Assembly: GCA_030057555.1 (NCBI GenBank) | Contig: JASGUU010000020.1 | Coordinates: 69,286 to 133,285 of the forward strand | Direction: 5' to 3' | DNA: 64,000 nucleotides | Source: Bacillota bacterium | GTDB taxonomy: Bacteria > Bacillota > Clostridia > Saccharofermentanales > Fastidiosipilaceae | Shown: positions 29,056 through 43,064 of the stretch, one piece after another | Position numbering within the stretch: position 1 is the first letter of the stretch | How the letters are laid out: each line of letters begins with the position of its first letter | Program-made: the position numbers and the translations under genes | The notes under the pieces: generated by a model | Told to the model about the DNA's origin: nothing | The model's input: only the letters and a program-made list of their open reading frames with translations | The model's database searches: none

Positions 29056-29084
29056 ACAGTAGGCAAAGCCCGGCCCGCTGTCAA
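29056..29084 (-). promoter_or_regulatory. Sigma-70-type promoter of the corrinoid operon
   Basis: On the minus strand TTGACA (29079-29084), a 17-bp spacer and TACTGT (29056-29061) lie just before the riboswitch. The -35 overlaps the murD stop codon. Confidence 0.55.
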
Positions 29085-30451
29085 GCATCCTCACGCTGAC
29101 CGTAGCGGGCGACGAGGCTGCGAAACTCATCGCCGCGCTCCTCGAAACTGCGCCAGCGGTGATAGGAGGAGGCCGCCGGCGAGAGCAGGCAGGCCCGGCC
29201 CGGCCGCGTCCGTGCGAAAGCCGCCGCCACCGCCTCTTCCAGAGTCTCGACCATGATGCTGCGGCCGGGTGCAGTGGCGGCGATCCGGGCGTGAATCGCG
29301 CGTCCCGTGTCAGGCAGGCAGATGACCGTCTCGATACCGCTCGCAATCAGATGCTCGGCAAAGTCCGTCAAATCGATGCCGCGGTCCATGCCGCCCACGA
29401 TGAGGGTGGCCACGCTGCCGAGTGTCTCGATCGCGAGCTCGGTCGCAGCCGGGATCGTGGCGATGGAATCGTTATAGAAGGCGATGCCGGACCAGACGCC
29501 GAGGGGTTCGCAGCGGTGCGGGATCGGCCGGAAACCACGAATCGCCCTGCGGATCGCCGCCTCATCGGCTCCGGCAGCACTCGCCAGAGCTGCGGCCAGC
29601 GCCATGTCCAGCGCATGGTGCGGTCCACCGAGAGCATCATGGAGGCCCAGATAGCGTCTGCCATCGGCCGACGTTACATCCTGCACCCTGCCCTTAACCA
29701 GAGGGTCCGAACGCCGTACGAGATCACCGTCCGCGCCGTTGCGGACAAAGAGCGCCCCGGAGTCTTGAAAACGCAGGATCTGCAGCTTCGCATCGCGATA
29801 CTCATCGTAGGAGCGATAGTGATCCAGATGCTCCGGGTAGAAATTTGTAATCGCCGCGAGCTGCGGCGAGCCCCAGGCAAACTGCAGCTGATGCGAAGAG
29901 AGCTCCACGACCGGAACGGTATCGGGACCGAGCCTCTCCCAGTCGTCGAGGACGGGCACGCCGATATTCCCGATCAGGGGCGCGTCCATGCCGGCCTCGC
30001 GCAGCATGGCGGCTGTCAGAGTGGCGGTGGTCGTCTTCCCCTTCGTTCCCGTAATGCCGATCAGGCGACGGCAGGGGTGAAAACGCAGCAGCAGGTCAAT
30101 CTGTCCGCCAATCACCGCACCCGGCCAGGCACCGAGGCGTCCCTCACCCAGCCAGTGATCCGTATAATCGCGCAGGCTGATGCCCGGTGACTTGAACACA
30201 TAGTCGGCTGCTGCCATCGCGTCGAGATAGTGCTCACCCGTGACGAGCCCCGCTTCCGGATCGAGGGCGGCCAGTTCGGCTGGATCGAGGCGGCCGCGGT
30301 CCGCAACCGTGACGCTGCGCGGTACCAGCTCGTCGCGATGGCGGGAGATGAAGCCGAGCGTCGAGCGTCCCTCGCGTCCGAAGCCGAGCAGCAGCAGGTG
30401 ACGGTCTCCGATGGCTTCAACGAGAGCGTCGGGCAGGCTTTGGGCTGTCAT
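29081..30451 (-). CDS. murD: UDP-N-acetylmuramoyl-L-alanine:glutamate ligase (MurD, likely MurD2 type)
   Basis: A 456-residue Mur ligase that adds glutamate to UDP-MurNAc-L-Ala in cytosolic peptidoglycan synthesis. The ATP loop GITGTKGKTTTATL is near residue 140, VELSSHQLQF near 190, and NFYPEHLDHYRSYDEY follows. The C-terminal domain carries VGGMDRGIDL. Its start overlaps the upstream murL-type gene by 4 bp. In Xanthomonas, a MurD2 paired with MurL uses L-glutamate, and MurL then epimerises the product; the same is inferred here. Which isomer this ligase uses cannot be read from sequence. Confidence 0.93.
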   Translation of the reverse strand: MTAQSLPDALVEAIGDRHLLLLGFGREGRSTLGFISRHRDELVPRSVTVADRGRLDPAELAALDPEAGLVTGEHYLDAMAAADYVFKSPGISLRDYTDHWLGEGRLGAWPGAVIGGQIDLLLRFHPCRRLIGITGTKGKTTTATLTAAMLREAGMDAPLIGNIGVPVLDDWERLGPDTVPVVELSSHQLQFAWGSPQLAAITNFYPEHLDHYRSYDEYRDAKLQILRFQDSGALFVRNGADGDLVRRSDPLVKGRVQDVTSADGRRYLGLHDALGGPHHALDMALAAALASAAGADEAAIRRAIRGFRPIPHRCEPLGVWSGIAFYNDSIATIPAATELAIETLGSVATLIVGGMDRGIDLTDFAEHLIASGIETVICLPDTGRAIHARIAATAPGRSIMVETLEEAVAAAFARTRPGRACLLSPAASSYHRWRSFEERGDEFRSLVARYGQREDA

Positions 30452-31884
30452 CGCGAAACCGGCTCCGAATCCGGAAAGGCAGCGGCCCCGTCAGCCAGAA
30501 GGTCCGCGATGGCGGGGCGGAACTCCGCCGGTATGTGGTCCTCCGTCGTCTGCAGGCGGAAGGGATGCTTCGTGCCAACAGGGACGGACGGCAGGCAGCC
30601 CGCCCGCCGGGCCTCGAGCCAGCGGCGGACCAGGGCCGGGGGACGGGCGCCCGGCTCCAGCCAGCCCTGGTTTTTCACAGCCAGCCCCAGGGCAAAGTTC
30701 ACCTCCGTGACCGTGCCGACACACTCCCAGGGCTTGGTATCCCGGAGCCCGACGAGGCCGTCAAAGGCTTCCTCGAGCTCCTTCCGCTCCAGAATGTCGG
30801 GGGCGATGAGGGTTTGGATGCGCTCCGGACCGAGGAAGGGCAGCAGCATGAGGGCGACAAAGAGGCACTTCCCGCAGGCGCCGCACCAGCGGTTGGCACG
30901 GCCGCCGAGATTGCAGGACAGAAAGACATCGTGGTACCGGGGGTGCCGGCAGAACTCTCTGGCGATCGCCAGCTCCGAGAAGGGGCGCAGCAGGCTGAAA
31001 TACTGGACCGGCCAGGGGTAGGCACGCTCCTCGTACCTGCGAAAGAGGGTTTCAAAGGCAAAGGACTTGGACCACTGGTGATTGACATCGCTGCCCGCCA
31101 CCGTAGCGTCCGAGGCGGAGGCCTCGTTCGAGAGCGCCACGAAGCCGCAGCCGTGCAGCAGGGCGGCGAGTTCCGCGACGAAGGCCAGCAGTGCCGAGAA
31201 GGGGGTGTGGCCGTTCAGAAAGCCGCGGCTGTTCAGTTCAAGCAGGGCCGGATCGAGGCGCCGGCGGACCAGAACGCGGTCGTCAGGGGCAATCCCCGCC
31301 TGCTCCATCGTCCCCAGAGCGGCCCCGGTGGCGTTGAGCGCAAAGGCAACACGGCGGCGCGGCCCCGGGCTCAGGCGTTCGAGCGCAACAACCGAATCCT
31401 TTCCGCCGCCTACAGGAACCAGCACCGCATCAAAGCGGAGAGTGGCGGGGGCGGCAGGCAGCGGCCCGGCCCCGGCCCCGGTAAGAGCCTCAAAACGCAG
31501 GGGCGGCTCATCCGGCGCAATCCCGTTGCGGTAGAAGAATTCCCCGAGGCCGTTACGATAGACCTGATACCACCAGTCGGCCTCCTCCGGACCCGGCCGC
31601 CAGCCCTCGATCCGTACCGTGGGAGGACAGCAGCACTTCCAGTAGGAGATCATCTCGATCAGGGCGAGATCGCGGACCAGGCGCTCTATCCATGCGGCCG
31701 GCAGCGAGGCGGCCTGATTACCCGGCGACAGCGGGAACAGGAGCCGCGGTGCAAAGTCCGCGAGACCCGGAATTTCAAAATCAAACTGAATGTCCAGCTC
31801 CGTGGTCGTCAGCCGCCAGCGGGGGCTGCGTACGACAAATACCGGATAGCGGTTCCGGAGCTGTCGGTAATCCATCTCCTGCAT
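30448..31884 (-). CDS. murL: UDP-MurNAc-L-Ala-L-Glu epimerase-like protein (MurL family)
   Basis: A 478-residue protein with a PP-loop-like nucleotide site (PVGGGKDS at ~157-164), SNEASASD at ~252-259, NHQWSKS at ~268-274 and a CGACGKC cluster at ~334-340. These match the MurL family, which uses ATP to epimerise the terminal L-glutamate of UDP-MurNAc-L-Ala-L-Glu to D-glutamate, replacing the need for glutamate racemase. The 4-bp overlap with murD supports the role. ATG 31884 has GGAG at good distance; another ATG at 31875 is too close to the site. A MurL call is by motif memory and context, not by alignment. Confidence 0.78.
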   Translation of the reverse strand: MQEMDYRQLRNRYPVFVVRSPRWRLTTTELDIQFDFEIPGLADFAPRLLFPLSPGNQAASLPAAWIERLVRDLALIEMISYWKCCCPPTVRIEGWRPGPEEADWWYQVYRNGLGEFFYRNGIAPDEPPLRFEALTGAGAGPLPAAPATLRFDAVLVPVGGGKDSVVALERLSPGPRRRVAFALNATGAALGTMEQAGIAPDDRVLVRRRLDPALLELNSRGFLNGHTPFSALLAFVAELAALLHGCGFVALSNEASASDATVAGSDVNHQWSKSFAFETLFRRYEERAYPWPVQYFSLLRPFSELAIAREFCRHPRYHDVFLSCNLGGRANRWCGACGKCLFVALMLLPFLGPERIQTLIAPDILERKELEEAFDGLVGLRDTKPWECVGTVTEVNFALGLAVKNQGWLEPGARPPALVRRWLEARRAGCLPSVPVGTKHPFRLQTTEDHIPAEFRPAIADLLADGAAAFPDSEPVSR

Positions 31885-32606: not shown

Positions 32607-33947
32607 GTGTTGAACTCTGAAACCCAGCAGCCGGGCCCGCGCCGGGGTACCGTCCGTTTTATTCTTCTCGGCGCTCTCCTGATTGTCATGGCCTCCACCA
32701 TCATCGCGGCCGCCCGCGGCAATCTGCCCCTGCCCATTCCGCCGCAGGCCGACACGGCCGCAAAGGAGCGGGAAAGCAGCTCCATTGTCACCGACATTAC
32801 TGCCGGCGAAAGCTCCGGCACGGAACACGGTACAGCCGACGCGGCCGCCACCGGGCCGCTGCTCACCGATGCCACGACAACAGTGCCGGCAACAACAGCC
32901 GCGGACACGGCGGGCGAGGCGGCGGCCGATCCCGACCGGGTACGCTATCTGCTGAGCGAGAACAGTGCCGTCGCCGATGCCGAGACCAGACCCGACGCCA
33001 GTGGCGCCTGGACGCAGTGGGCACCCGGCATTTCAACCCCCTATCTGCTGGATGTCCGCCTGCCCGAATTTGACGCGGCTCGTCCGCTCAACGGTGTTAC
33101 CGTCATTCTGGATCCGGGACACGGCGGCAAGGATCCGGGTACGGCAGGTTTCGACAGCAGCGGCAACGAGCATCCCGAGAAGACTTTCAATCTCTGTCTC
33201 GCGAACCGGCTTACTCCCCTGCTCGAAGCCCAGGGCGCCCAGGTGATCCCCACCCGCACCGGCGACGAATGGGTCTCCCTCTATTCCCGCATCGCTCTGG
33301 CCGGTCAGCACGCCACATCGATCTGGCAGGCCCTGCTGGATCAGCTTAATGTCGACACGGCCTGGATAGGGGCCATCGATGCCGGCTTCCAGGTCATGCG
33401 CTCGATCAACGAGGACACCGCCGGCAGCGGCGGGCGCGGCATGGCTCAGGGCGTCGGCATGAACGAGGCCATGCGCAAGGCCATGGACATGCAGCGCCAG
33501 CTGACCAACACCATCTATCTTTCGATCCACGCCAACGCCTCGACCGAGTCCACGGAGGTGCGGGGCTTTCAGGTCTTCTACACGAGTTCCGACGCTGTCT
33601 ATGCCTCGGAGGGCGAGCGGGTGCGCACCCAGCCCGACGGCGAAGACACGAAACCGGTCAGTCCCTTCTACCCCCACTATGACAACGAGGGCCGGCGGGC
33701 CCTCGCCACCGCCGTAGCCCAGGCCCTCGGCGAAGCCGTCCCTGAGCTCAACAAGCATGCCGAGCCCGTAACCAGCGGCAACTATGCCTATCTGCGCGAG
33801 GTCAACTACAACGCCATCATGCTCGAGGCAGGCTTCATGTCGAATCCCTACGACCTCGCTCTGCTGATCGACGAATCCGTGCAGCAGCGTCTCGCCGAAG
33901 GTCTCGTCCGCGGCCTCGCTGCCTACGTCGAAAGCCTCTCGCCATAA
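32607..33947 (+). CDS. N-acetylmuramoyl-L-alanine amidase (Amidase_3 family)
   Basis: A 446-residue zinc hydrolase that cuts the MurNAc-L-Ala bond of peptidoglycan. One N-terminal helix anchors it (VRFILLGALLIVMAS), then a Thr/Ala-rich linker and the catalytic domain. Zinc and catalytic residues are visible: DPGHGGKDPG, the Glu in HPEKTFNLCL, SIHANAS and the late EAGFMSN. The domain has an insert of about 70 residues between the second and third ligand (HATSIWQALLDQLNVDTAWIG onward, split by VMRSINEDTAG). The start is a GTG with GAGGA upstream, 9 bp behind the MerR-like gene. Confidence 0.93.
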   Translation: MLNSETQQPGPRRGTVRFILLGALLIVMASTIIAAARGNLPLPIPPQADTAAKERESSSIVTDITAGESSGTEHGTADAAATGPLLTDATTTVPATTAADTAGEAAADPDRVRYLLSENSAVADAETRPDASGAWTQWAPGISTPYLLDVRLPEFDAARPLNGVTVILDPGHGGKDPGTAGFDSSGNEHPEKTFNLCLANRLTPLLEAQGAQVIPTRTGDEWVSLYSRIALAGQHATSIWQALLDQLNVDTAWIGAIDAGFQVMRSINEDTAGSGGRGMAQGVGMNEAMRKAMDMQRQLTNTIYLSIHANASTESTEVRGFQVFYTSSDAVYASEGERVRTQPDGEDTKPVSPFYPHYDNEGRRALATAVAQALGEAVPELNKHAEPVTSGNYAYLREVNYNAIMLEAGFMSNPYDLALLIDESVQQRLAEGLVRGLAAYVESLSP

Positions 33948-38868: not shown

Positions 38869-39117
38869 CGGCAGGCACTCCGGCGCAGCACGGAGGCGGC
38901 GGAGCATTCTGACTGCCCAAATCTGCCTGCTGCGAGAGCCCGTGCCTCCATGCGGCCAAAACCGTTTTCGCACCCTGTCATTCAGGGCGTGCTCTCCGGC
39001 GCCCATATTTCGTTCGGAATCCTTCCTAAATATGCTAAGCTTATGTTAGATGCCCGCTGTTCCCTGTGGCATTGAGCCCTATTTGCGATTTGCAGAAGCT
39101 GCAGAAGGATGTGGACG

Positions 39118-40098
39118 ATGGCAAAACAATGGAAAGCCCGGAGAGAGAGTCGGGAGATCACCGTGACGAACTCTGCCGGCGAGACAGTGGTGCTCGGACG
39201 CCGGAGGCGCTCTTTGCGTACCTTCATCCCCTTCTATGTGATGCTGGTCATCCCGGTCGTCTGGTACCTTGTCTTTCATTATTATCCGATGACGGGTCTG
39301 CTGATTGCCTTTCAGAAATACAGTTTCAAGGGAGGCTTCTACCGCAACCCCTGGGTGGGTCTGCGCTATTTCCGCGACTTTCTCGGCGACCCCGTCTTCT
39401 GGTCACTGATCCGCAACACCCTGGTCATCAGCATCTCGAAGCTGATCTTCGCCTTCCCGGCACCGATCATCCTCGCCCTGATGCTGAACGAGGTAAACGT
39501 ACCCTGGTACAAGCGCACCATTCAGACCGTGTCCTATCTGCCGCACTTCGTCTCCTGGGCCGTCGTCGCCGCCCTGATTCATAAGTTCTTCGGCCTCTAC
39601 AACGGTCTCTTCAACGACCTGCGCATCGCGAACGGCGAAGCGCCCTATTTCTACCTCGGCGATCGCAATCTCTTCCTGCCCTTCGTTGTCCTCAGCGACA
39701 TCTGGAAGGGGGTCGGCTTCGGCTCGATTGTCTACCTCGCCGCCCTCTCCGGCGTCGACCCCGCCCTTTACGAGGCGGCAACCATCGACGGCGCCAACGG
39801 CCGTCAGCGCATGTGGCATATCACCCTGCCGTCCATCGCCCCGACCATCGGCATCATGCTGCTGATGAACATCGGCGGTCTCTTCGGCGCCAACATGGAG
39901 CAGATCCTGCTGCTGCAGACGCCGGCCACCTTCGATATCTCGGAAGTGCTCGACACCTACATTCTGAAGCGCGGCATCATGATGAATCAGCCCGACTATG
40001 CGGCGGCGGTCACCATCTTCCGCTCGACGATCAGTCTGGGCCTCGTCGCCGCCGTGAACACAATCTCGAAGAAGCTCTCGGGCATCTCGCTCTGGTAG
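39118..40098 (+). CDS. Sugar ABC transporter permease (LplB type)
   Basis: A 326-residue permease with six helices and the coupling-loop motif EAATIDGANGRQRMWHITLP near 225. The LplB-type N-terminal RTFIPFYVMLVIPVVWYLVFHYYP-like stretch is present. I prefer ATG 39118 to ATG 39109 since AGAAGGA lies 8-9 nt upstream. It is first in a permease-permease-binding protein operon that lacks its own ATPase, as usual for this type, which shares an MsmX-like ATPase. The adjacent alpha-mannosidase suggests a mannoside as substrate. Confidence 0.92.
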   Translation: MAKQWKARRESREITVTNSAGETVVLGRRRRSLRTFIPFYVMLVIPVVWYLVFHYYPMTGLLIAFQKYSFKGGFYRNPWVGLRYFRDFLGDPVFWSLIRNTLVISISKLIFAFPAPIILALMLNEVNVPWYKRTIQTVSYLPHFVSWAVVAALIHKFFGLYNGLFNDLRIANGEAPYFYLGDRNLFLPFVVLSDIWKGVGFGSIVYLAALSGVDPALYEAATIDGANGRQRMWHITLPSIAPTIGIMLLMNIGGLFGANMEQILLLQTPATFDISEVLDTYILKRGIMMNQPDYAAAVTIFRSTISLGLVAAVNTISKKLSGISLW

Positions 40099-40136: not shown

Positions 40137-41069
40137 ATGAGTTCTGGAGTATCAGGCCACAGCTATCTGAAAAAGAGTCGCGGTTACTATGTCATTCAGG
40201 CGATCAACTATACGCTGCTGCTCGGGCTCGGATTAATTACTCTCTACCCGTTCTGGTACGCCTTTGTGCTCGCCTTCAACGATGGCAACGACGCGATGCG
40301 CGGGGGCATTTACATCTGGCCGCGTATCTTCTCGCTCGACAACTTCCAGGTCGCCTTCCGCAACCGCCTGATCCGCCCGGCCTTTACCATCTCAATTTCG
40401 CGTACCGCGCTCGCCATTATCATCGGTGTCACGATGCAGGCGATGATGGCCTACGCACTGACCAAGCGTGATCTGCCGGGGCGCAGCGGCATCATCTTCT
40501 TTTTCTACTTCACCACCCTCTTCGGCGGTGGTCTCGCACCTACCTATATCCTCTATCGACAGATCGGCCTGCTGAATAATTTCTGGGTCTATGTCATTCC
40601 CGGCATCTTCAGCTTCTTCAATGCGATCATTCTGCGCACGGCCTTCTACTCGGTTCCCGACTCGCTCTCGGAGTCGGCCCGCATCGACGGCGCCTCGGAA
40701 TTCCGCATTTTCTTCCAGATCATTATTCCCCTCTCGCTGCCCACCATCGCGACCATCGCGCTCTTTATCGGCGTCGGCAACTGGAACGACTGGTTTACGG
40801 GCCAGTACTTCGTCCCCAATAAAAAGCTCTGGCCGGCGGCTACCCTGCTCAACGACCTGATGAACACATTCCAGCAGTCAGCCACGGCGACCACCACCGG
40901 CGGCCAGGCGCAGGTCAACGAGGCGCTCGCCGGCGGTCAGGCGCGTGTGACCGCGGAATCGGTCAAGATGGCCTTCCTCGTCATTCTCACGATGCCCATT
41001 ATCGTGATTTACCCGTTCGTACAGAAATACTTCGTCAAGGGGGTGATGATCGGCTCGATTAAGGAATAA
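40137..41069 (+). CDS. Sugar ABC transporter permease (LplC/YtcP type)
   Basis: A 310-residue permease, six helices, with the coupling-loop motif SESARIDGASEFRIFFQIIIPL near 185. It forms a pair with the upstream LplB-type permease, 38 bp away, with AGGGAAGGA before the ATG. It ends about 65 bp before the binding-protein gene. The loop holds an unusual AGGQA-type repeat region (ATTTGGQAQVNEALAGGQARV) around residue 260. Confidence 0.92.
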   Translation: MSSGVSGHSYLKKSRGYYVIQAINYTLLLGLGLITLYPFWYAFVLAFNDGNDAMRGGIYIWPRIFSLDNFQVAFRNRLIRPAFTISISRTALAIIIGVTMQAMMAYALTKRDLPGRSGIIFFFYFTTLFGGGLAPTYILYRQIGLLNNFWVYVIPGIFSFFNAIILRTAFYSVPDSLSESARIDGASEFRIFFQIIIPLSLPTIATIALFIGVGNWNDWFTGQYFVPNKKLWPAATLLNDLMNTFQQSATATTTGGQAQVNEALAGGQARVTAESVKMAFLVILTMPIIVIYPFVQKYFVKGVMIGSIKE

Positions 41070-41135: not shown

Positions 41136-43064
41136 TTGAAGAAAAGAATATCCTTTATCGCGGCCGTACTGGCCGTAGTGATGCTTCTCGCCGCCTGCGG
41201 AGGAACGGCTGCCACGACGGCTGCGCCGACCACGGCCGCACCGAAGACAGAAGCGCCCGAGACGGAAGCACCGAAAACGGAGAAGCCCGAAACCGAGGCG
41301 CCGGAGACCGATGCTCCCGAGACCGAGGCACCGGAGACCGAAGCGCCTGAAACAGAGGCCCCGGAGACGGAAGCTCCCGAGACGGAAGCACCCGAAACCG
41401 AGGCGCCGGAGACGGAAGCTCCCGAGACGGAAGCGCCCGAAACCGAGGCGCCGGAAACGGAAGGCCCGGAGATCAGCGCCGATGCACCGACTGCAGTCGT
41501 CCCCTACGAGACCGTGGAAAGCTACGATGATGTGAAGACCTACTCCTTCCTCATGTGCTGGAACGGTGGCGCAGGCGCCTTCCCCTTCGGCTTCAACGAT
41601 GGCGCGATCGCCAAGGCGCTCGAGGAGCGTACCGGCGTCCGTCTCGAGGCCGAAACCATCGTCTCCTCCGAGCGTGAGAAGCTGGCTCAGGTCTTCATGA
41701 GCGGCATCGTGCCGGATATCACCAACGCACCGCACTGGAGCACCAACCCCGGCGGCGAGGGCGAACTGATCAAGAACGCGGCGATCGACGGTCTGCTGCT
41801 GAACCTGGTCGGCCTCTACGAGCGCTTCCCGAACATCGTCCGTTCGATGACCGAAGGCGTCTCCTCCGTCTACCTCGCACGTGACCTCGAGCACCCCGAC
41901 TACGAAGGCGCCCGCTATGTCATCCCGACTCAGACACCCCGCACCGATGCCGACGTCCAGAACTGGGCCTATGGTATCTTCGTGCGCAAGGACATCCTCG
42001 AGGATCTCGGCTACGAGCCTGCTGACATCAATACGCAGGACAAGCTCTACACCTTCCTGACCGAGATCCGGGATGGCGGCTATGTCGACATCAACGATCG
42101 TCCCGTCATCCCCGCCGGTTCCTGGCACAACGGCTGGAGCTACAACAGCCTGATCAACGGCTTCTCCGATCTGAGCGCCACCGGCTGGTATGTCGATGAA
42201 GACGGCAAGGTCCAGAATGATATCTTCGCCGACTGGCAGGTTGACCGTCTGCTGTACATGCGCAAACTGGTCAATGAGGGTCTCTTCGACGTCGAGAGCC
42301 TGACCCACACCGACTCCGTCGCCCGCGAGAAGGCCTCCACCGGCCGCGTCGCGGTCATCACCGGTCACTATCCGCACGTGCGCGGCGCCTTCCAGGCCAA
42401 CCTCTATCTGACCAACCCCGAGATGGAATACGTCCCGGTTGGCCCGCTGCAGAACGACGAGGGCAAGATCCCGACGACCTGGAACCGCCACGGCCGCACC
42501 GGCTCGCCCGTCCTCTTCTTCAACGCCGACATCGAGGAGCCCGAGCGCGCTCTGAACATGGTCGACTTTATCAACTCCGATGAGGGCCTGCTGCTGTCGT
42601 CCTTCGGTATTGAGGGCACACACTACAACTTCGAGGACGGCATCCCCGTCCGCACCGAAGAGTGGGACAAGATCAGCAAGGAAGACCCCGAGCGCTACAA
42701 CCTCGAAGGCTTCGGCATCGGCGGCCAGTTCATCGGCGCCGACCCCTTCAAGGGCTGGGGTTGGGATGCCAGCTACATGGAAGATGGCTATGTCAACGCC
42801 CGCGAATTCGTTCCCATGCAGTTCTTCGATGGCAAGACCTTTGATGACCTCGCCCAGGAATGGGAAGGCCGCAAGGAGTACGACGAGCTGATGTCCACCA
42901 TCAACTGGGGCGATGACCAGAAGCGCGCGATCGCCGCGGAAAGCGACGAGGCCGCCATCGAGATCCTCGAGAACTATCGCAACCGCATGCTCGAGGCCGG
43001 CATGGAAGAGATGATCGCCTACATCCAGGCCGCCTACGACGAGGATCCCTCGATCATCTACTAA
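41136..43064 (+). CDS. Extracellular sugar-binding lipoprotein with pentapeptide-repeat stalk
   Basis: A 642-residue solute-binding lipoprotein for the LplB/LplC transporter. The start is TTG 41136 with AAGGAGG upstream. The lipobox is LAAC, followed by ~15 copies of a pentapeptide ETEAP (residues ~37-110) and the binding domain (LMCWNGGAGAFPFGFNDGAIAK and later domains typical of LipO-type proteins). The stalk probably holds the domain away from the membrane through the wall. Inside the stalk DNA a 45-bp unit is repeated almost exactly at 41361-41405 and 41406-41450. Confidence 0.92.
   Translation: MKKRISFIAAVLAVVMLLAACGGTAATTAAPTTAAPKTEAPETEAPKTEKPETEAPETDAPETEAPETEAPETEAPETEAPETEAPETEAPETEAPETEAPETEAPETEGPEISADAPTAVVPYETVESYDDVKTYSFLMCWNGGAGAFPFGFNDGAIAKALEERTGVRLEAETIVSSEREKLAQVFMSGIVPDITNAPHWSTNPGGEGELIKNAAIDGLLLNLVGLYERFPNIVRSMTEGVSSVYLARDLEHPDYEGARYVIPTQTPRTDADVQNWAYGIFVRKDILEDLGYEPADINTQDKLYTFLTEIRDGGYVDINDRPVIPAGSWHNGWSYNSLINGFSDLSATGWYVDEDGKVQNDIFADWQVDRLLYMRKLVNEGLFDVESLTHTDSVAREKASTGRVAVITGHYPHVRGAFQANLYLTNPEMEYVPVGPLQNDEGKIPTTWNRHGRTGSPVLFFNADIEEPERALNMVDFINSDEGLLLSSFGIEGTHYNFEDGIPVRTEEWDKISKEDPERYNLEGFGIGGQFIGADPFKGWGWDASYMEDGYVNAREFVPMQFFDGKTFDDLAQEWEGRKEYDELMSTINWGDDQKRAIAAESDEAAIEILENYRNRMLEAGMEEMIAYIQAAYDEDPSIIY
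41361..41450 (+). repeat. Two tandem 45-bp units within the lipoprotein stalk
   Basis: Two adjacent 45-bp copies differ by one third-position base (GCA/GCG) and encode three ETEAP pentads each. Other pentads around them differ at synonymous sites, so this pair is a recent expansion. Confidence 0.8.

Follow-up and report, generated by a model that had tools for sequence, protein, structure and literature searches.

The window, by which we mean the whole 64,000-nucleotide stretch of DNA that was analyzed, carries two overlapping genes on its minus strand. murL (30448..31884) encodes a protein of 478 amino acids, recognized by its match to the NCBIfam model NF041275 and its placement among other MurLs in a tree, and murD (29081..30451) encodes a ligase of 456 amino acids with residues of the MurD2 type. 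The initial annotation had described a 4-bp overlap between them, and this was borne out: both minus-strand open reading frames lie at these coordinates and have in common the sequence ATGA (30448..30451), in which start and stop codons overlap. Judging from this arrangement, translation of murL and murD is likely to be coupled. As far as the neighboring genes show, the pair is not part of a dcw-type cluster. An Amidase_3 N-acetylmuramoyl-L-alanine amidase gene (32607-33947, plus strand) is located close to murL in divergent orientation. Elsewhere in the window, an open reading frame at 41136-43064 (plus strand), which has a lipoprotein-like start (LLAACGG) followed by a long PETEA repeat, lies just downstream of two permease-like open reading frames (39109-40098 and 40137-41069).

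The NF041275 model represents UDP-N-acetyl-alpha-D-muramoyl-L-alanyl-L-glutamate epimerase MurL and is named for the Xanthomonadales. The window MurL matched it over nearly its whole length with 268 bits (E 8e-80), residues 42-424 aligning with model positions 34-410 of 447. The cut-off of 700 bits was missed by the window protein and by all 13 MurL genomes of the order; it delimits a narrow Xanthomonadales group, not the function. A Pfam scan found no family above its cut-off, and the QueC and QatC families were absent from both the Pfam and the NCBIfam matches, so that MurL was the sole family, and no other PP-loop family, matched by sequence. The three motifs that had been singled out earlier are all present in MurL: GGGKDS (residue 159), SNEASA (252), and CGACGKC (334). 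The first of these (residues 159-164; 31393..31410, minus strand) is the putative PP-loop, or ATP pyrophosphate site, which lies in a predicted PP-loop fold and is nearly invariant in 41 MurLs. NHQWSK (residues 268-273; 31066..31083, minus strand) is invariant except for its Trp. A four-Cys motif, C324...C334..C337..C340 (SCN...WCGACGKC; 30865..30915, minus strand), forms a putative, QueC-like metal site whose Cys residues are invariant in the 41 MurLs; its spacing is close to that of the four-Cys zinc site of QueC. Across 25 MurL homologues, GGG.DS, NHQ.SK, SCN, and WC..C.KC were invariant or nearly so; CVG belongs to the same class of residues.

MurL has been described in reviews as a protein without known domains. 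We obtained an AF2 model of the window MurL with a mean pLDDT of 88.7, and its nearest solved folds were QatC (Z 17.2 over 332 residues) and QueC (Z 13.2 and 12.6), with Cap9 and further PP-loop ATP pyrophosphatases coming next. QueC adenylates a carboxylate to activate it, and the modeled MurL, with a QueC/QatC-like PP-loop fold and a four-Cys motif, fits such chemistry, which gives a concrete and testable mechanism for the enzyme. Predicted fold, PP-loop, and four-Cys motif are thus common to MurL and QueC/QatC; MurL differs from them in its partner genes, in an extra N-terminal part that is partly common to QatC, and in having no sequence relation to them detectable in the Pfam and NCBIfam scans. 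Given how close the folds are, the missing sequence match is no evidence against shared ancestry. The structural resemblance would also suit a different PP-loop enzyme of the QatC/QueC type that modifies a nucleobase or a protein and lies next to murD by chance. We consider this extremely unlikely, as MurL alone is matched by sequence and the association with murD recurs across phyla: murD adjoins murL or is fused to it at 52 of the 56 named MurL loci, and of the four exceptions three are at or near contig ends.

The overlapping partner had been called murD, and its TIGR01087 match (275 bits against a cut-off of 212) upholds that identity; it is the single MurD over the cut-off in the genome. 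The MurD2 of Xanthomonas oryzae adds L-Glu and is turned into a D-Glu ligase by the change E197D/R358K, these residues being the counterparts of D182 and K348 in E. coli MurD (PMC8788868). In an alignment to E. coli MurD, the window protein carries the MurD2-type residue at both specificity positions: Glu207 (codon 29831..29833, minus strand) corresponds to D182 and E197, with its role taken from the same work (PMC8788868), and Arg357 (codon 29381..29383, minus strand) corresponds to K348 and R358. We then looked at these columns more widely, comparing 65 MurL-linked MurDs with 24 racemase-linked ones, which come from members of the window's order that retain glutamate racemase. At K348 the residue was Arg in 65/65 of the MurL-linked and Lys in 24/24 of the racemase-linked proteins. 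The D182 column of the MurL-linked proteins held 25 Glu and 40 Asp, with Asp in many of the actinobacterial ones; within the order it was Glu in all MurL-linked MurDs and Asn in racemase-linked ones. Because of the clean split in the K348 column and because Glu is not universal, Arg is the better marker. Arg alone is nevertheless insufficient, since the MurD of Streptococcus mutans uses D-Glu yet has Arg at this position (PMC8788868). We also considered E. coli MurD K319 as a marker for L-Glu use and rejected it; Ile is found at this position in MurDs of the order whether they are linked to MurL or to the racemase. The window MurD has its Mur ligase domains in common with the canonical MurD of the order, which, unlike it, combines Lys at K348 and Asn at D182 with a MurI in the genome and membership of a separate clade.

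The window comes from a draft assembly of 2.9 Mb with 96% completeness. 16S was absent from this assembly, and we used RpoB for taxonomy instead. The best solved relatives of RpoB were entries 8i23 and 7l7b, the polymerases of Clostridium thermocellum and Clostridioides difficile, followed by Bacillus-type and then actinobacterial ones; the earlier placement of the host as Firmicutes-like is thereby supported, with the Clostridia as its closest solved counterparts. We searched the genome for murI and for a D-amino-acid aminotransferase, and found neither. There was no match to PF01177 (Asp/Glu racemase), a model that was positive in 10 of 14 controls, and none to the glutamate racemase model TIGR00067. 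The sole PF01063 (class IV aminotransferase) match was a fragment at a contig edge that most resembles type II IlvE, and the D-amino-acid aminotransferase model TIGR01121 had no match in the 96% complete assembly. A single missing gene could reflect an assembly gap in such a draft, although the absence recurs across the family.

In a sample of 398 genomes from the phylum, the window genome alone has MurL. Within the order, MurL was found in 13 of 188 genomes; 11 of these belong to the window's family, of which 12 genomes were covered, and the remaining two to a second family. The twelfth family genome, 84% complete, lacks MurL, but it lacks murD as well, so the murL-murD locus is probably just missing there. 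The low count in the phylum is what a recent horizontal acquisition, or a contaminant with no role in the host, would give. Such an origin is almost vanishingly improbable in view of the near-complete presence in the family, the base composition of the pair, which is that of the neighboring genes, and the fact that the genome has this murD only. Of the 188 genomes, 136 had a glutamate racemase over the cut-off, and not one of the 13 with MurL was among them (hypergeometric p = 1.6e-8, a value that overstates independence because the genomes are related). PF01177 matches in four genomes (G436, G445, G571, and G572) were considered as exceptions to this exclusion and rejected; TIGR00067 does not recognize them. 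The D-amino-acid aminotransferase model exceeded its cut-off in 0 of the 188 genomes, G532 coming close. Glutamate racemase has been lost in this bacterial family, and the MurD2/MurL route has very probably taken its place; this is apparently how an entire family of Clostridia-like bacteria obtains its D-Glu.

The two genes are even more closely joined in sister genomes. In six of them, from four genera of the window's family, MurL and MurD are encoded in one stop-free open reading frame of 1019-1070 amino acids (G446, G438, G439, G440, G442, and G443, at loci L098, L099, L100, L101, L102, and L103, respectively); three of the fused frames were scanned, and all three matched both the MurL and the MurD family models. 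In a further genome, G437 (L104:2840-2842), murL and murD are in the same frame and parted by a single TAA, an arrangement that may represent a step from operon to fusion, working by readthrough or reinitiation. Two Staskawiczbacteria loci (L015 and L062) encode an 831-amino-acid MurL-MurD fusion. The recurrence of overlap, adjacency, and fusion is strong evidence that both proteins act sequentially on one intermediate, and natural MurL-MurD fusion enzymes point to channeling of the L-Glu intermediate.

Named MurL relatives came from the Bdellovibrionales (41% identity), from candidate phyla including Peregrinibacteria and Staskawiczbacteria, and from Alphaproteobacteria, Actinomycetota, and Acidobacteria. 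A Saccharibacteria locus (L065) has a divergent MurL-like open reading frame in which the GGGKDS PP-loop could not be aligned and murD lies upstream, not downstream. In the MurD tree, the order's MurL-linked MurDs grouped in a single clade (99/96) and were separate from its racemase-linked ones (100/99). Their neighbors were the MurL-linked proteins of Bdellovibrionales and candidate phyla, in a tree with several long branches. The MurL tree agreed, giving an order clade (96/90) with a Bdellovibrionales protein as its sister (100/100). In ancestors of the window's family, the native murD and murI probably gave way to a murL-murD2 pair.

These results also bear on whether the ligase might be an ordinary D-Glu-adding MurD, with D-Glu coming from an unrecognized source (a moonlighting DapF, a PLP racemase, or uptake) and the MurL-like protein doing another job. 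Glutamate racemase activity of a DapF has been reported, in Chlamydia (PMC5885031), and the Arg-bearing S. mutans enzyme uses D-Glu all the same. Against this stand the mutual exclusion of MurL and racemase in 188 genomes, the fusions in six sister genomes, both MurD2 residues, and a MurD clade different from that of the racemase-linked proteins, and we regard it as very unlikely. In the MurD2/MurL route known from Xanthomonas, L-Glu is attached first and epimerized afterwards, and the initial annotation had read the window pair in this way. We find it highly probable, from the sequence data, that the window operon encodes this route to peptidoglycan D-Glu. What was observed directly, namely, the genes, their homology (including the MurL match), the specificity residues, the absent alternatives, the phyletic exclusion of racemase, the fusions, and the predicted fold, supports that reading, as does the MurD tree; the adjacent murL/murD pair sits in a genome in which neither MurI nor a D-amino-acid aminotransferase was found.

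Use of L-Glu by MurD, epimerase activity of MurL, and its adenylate chemistry are inferred. We propose adenylation of the alpha-carboxylate of L-Glu because QueC adenylates a carboxylate and MurL makes AMP. MurL, as a QueC-like PP-loop ATP pyrophosphatase, would convert the alpha-carboxylate of the newly added L-Glu residue to an adenylate, with ATP yielding AMP and PPi, the PP-loop site being the proposed place of this reaction. Formation of the adenylate would make the alpha proton acidic, exchange of that proton would turn the L-Glu residue into D-Glu, and hydrolysis of the adenylate would make the L-to-D step one-way. Adenylate chemistry was previously proposed for X. oryzae MurL, since AMP is formed (PMC8788868).

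Other lineages of the order have neither racemase over the cut-off nor MurL. In genus g287 and six g286 genomes, MurD is instead fused or adjacent to a PGA_cap/CapA domain (L144:1046-3427 in G551, L145:1002-3398 in G545, and L152-L168), and in G495 and G496 the CapA-type domain follows MurD directly, unfused. Every copy of the g287/g286 MurD that was read has the Arg of GG[ML]DR, the same as the MurD2-type Arg, and two sampled g287 proteins fell with the MurL-linked MurDs in the tree (97/92), on a long branch. The closest solved relative of the PGA_cap/CapA domain is MslH, a lasso-peptide epimerase; in an alignment, MslH E44, N87, H88, D91, H259, and H295 have counterparts in the CapA-type domain, D11 has a probable one in a TGD motif, and H261 has none (PMC10406935). 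None of the 27 same-order genomes with a strong CapA-type module had a racemase over the cut-off (p 1.5e-18), and none had MurL. Racemase, MurL, and the CapA-type module together cover 176 of the 188 genomes without overlap, and most of the other 12 are less than 90% complete. Neither a racemase over the cut-off nor MurL nor a strong CapA-type module was found in G502 and G578, two genomes that are 95-96% complete.

The sequences suggest that the MurD-CapA/MslH-type module may be a further ligate-then-epimerise system; if so, it would add another, undescribed route to the D-Glu of peptidoglycan, and these sister lineages suggest that glutamate racemase was replaced more than once by systems of this kind. 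We lean slightly toward a broader reading in which a MurD2-type, L-Glu-adding ligase is combined within the order with interchangeable epimerase modules, these being MurL in the window's family (overlapping, one stop codon apart, or fused) and a CapA/MslH-type metallophosphatase-fold domain in other lineages.

Nearly all walled bacteria cannot live without a supply of D-Glu, and that supply is a narrow-spectrum antibiotic target. Reviews list the MurD2/MurL route for Proteobacteria and Actinobacteria, and our literature search, which covered few subscription papers, turned up neither a MurL in Firmicutes nor a fusion of MurD to MurL or to CapA. The window pair is the known MurD2/MurL system in a lineage for which we found no literature report, and its interest is raised by the MurL-MurD fusions, by the assignment of a fold, and by a parallel module of the CapA/MslH type. 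The closest known system is MurD2/MurL of X. oryzae (XOO_1320/XOO_1319), with assayed orthologues in Micromonospora and Salinispora. Like that system, the window pair has near-full-length MurL homology, an adjacent MurD with the Glu/Arg pair, and a genome in which no glutamate racemase or D-amino-acid aminotransferase was found. It differs in its distant score (268 bits against the 700-bit cut-off), in having Ser/Tyr at the A414/L416 positions in place of Pro/Phe, in its Clostridia-like host, and in the one-chain fusion of both enzymes in sister genera.
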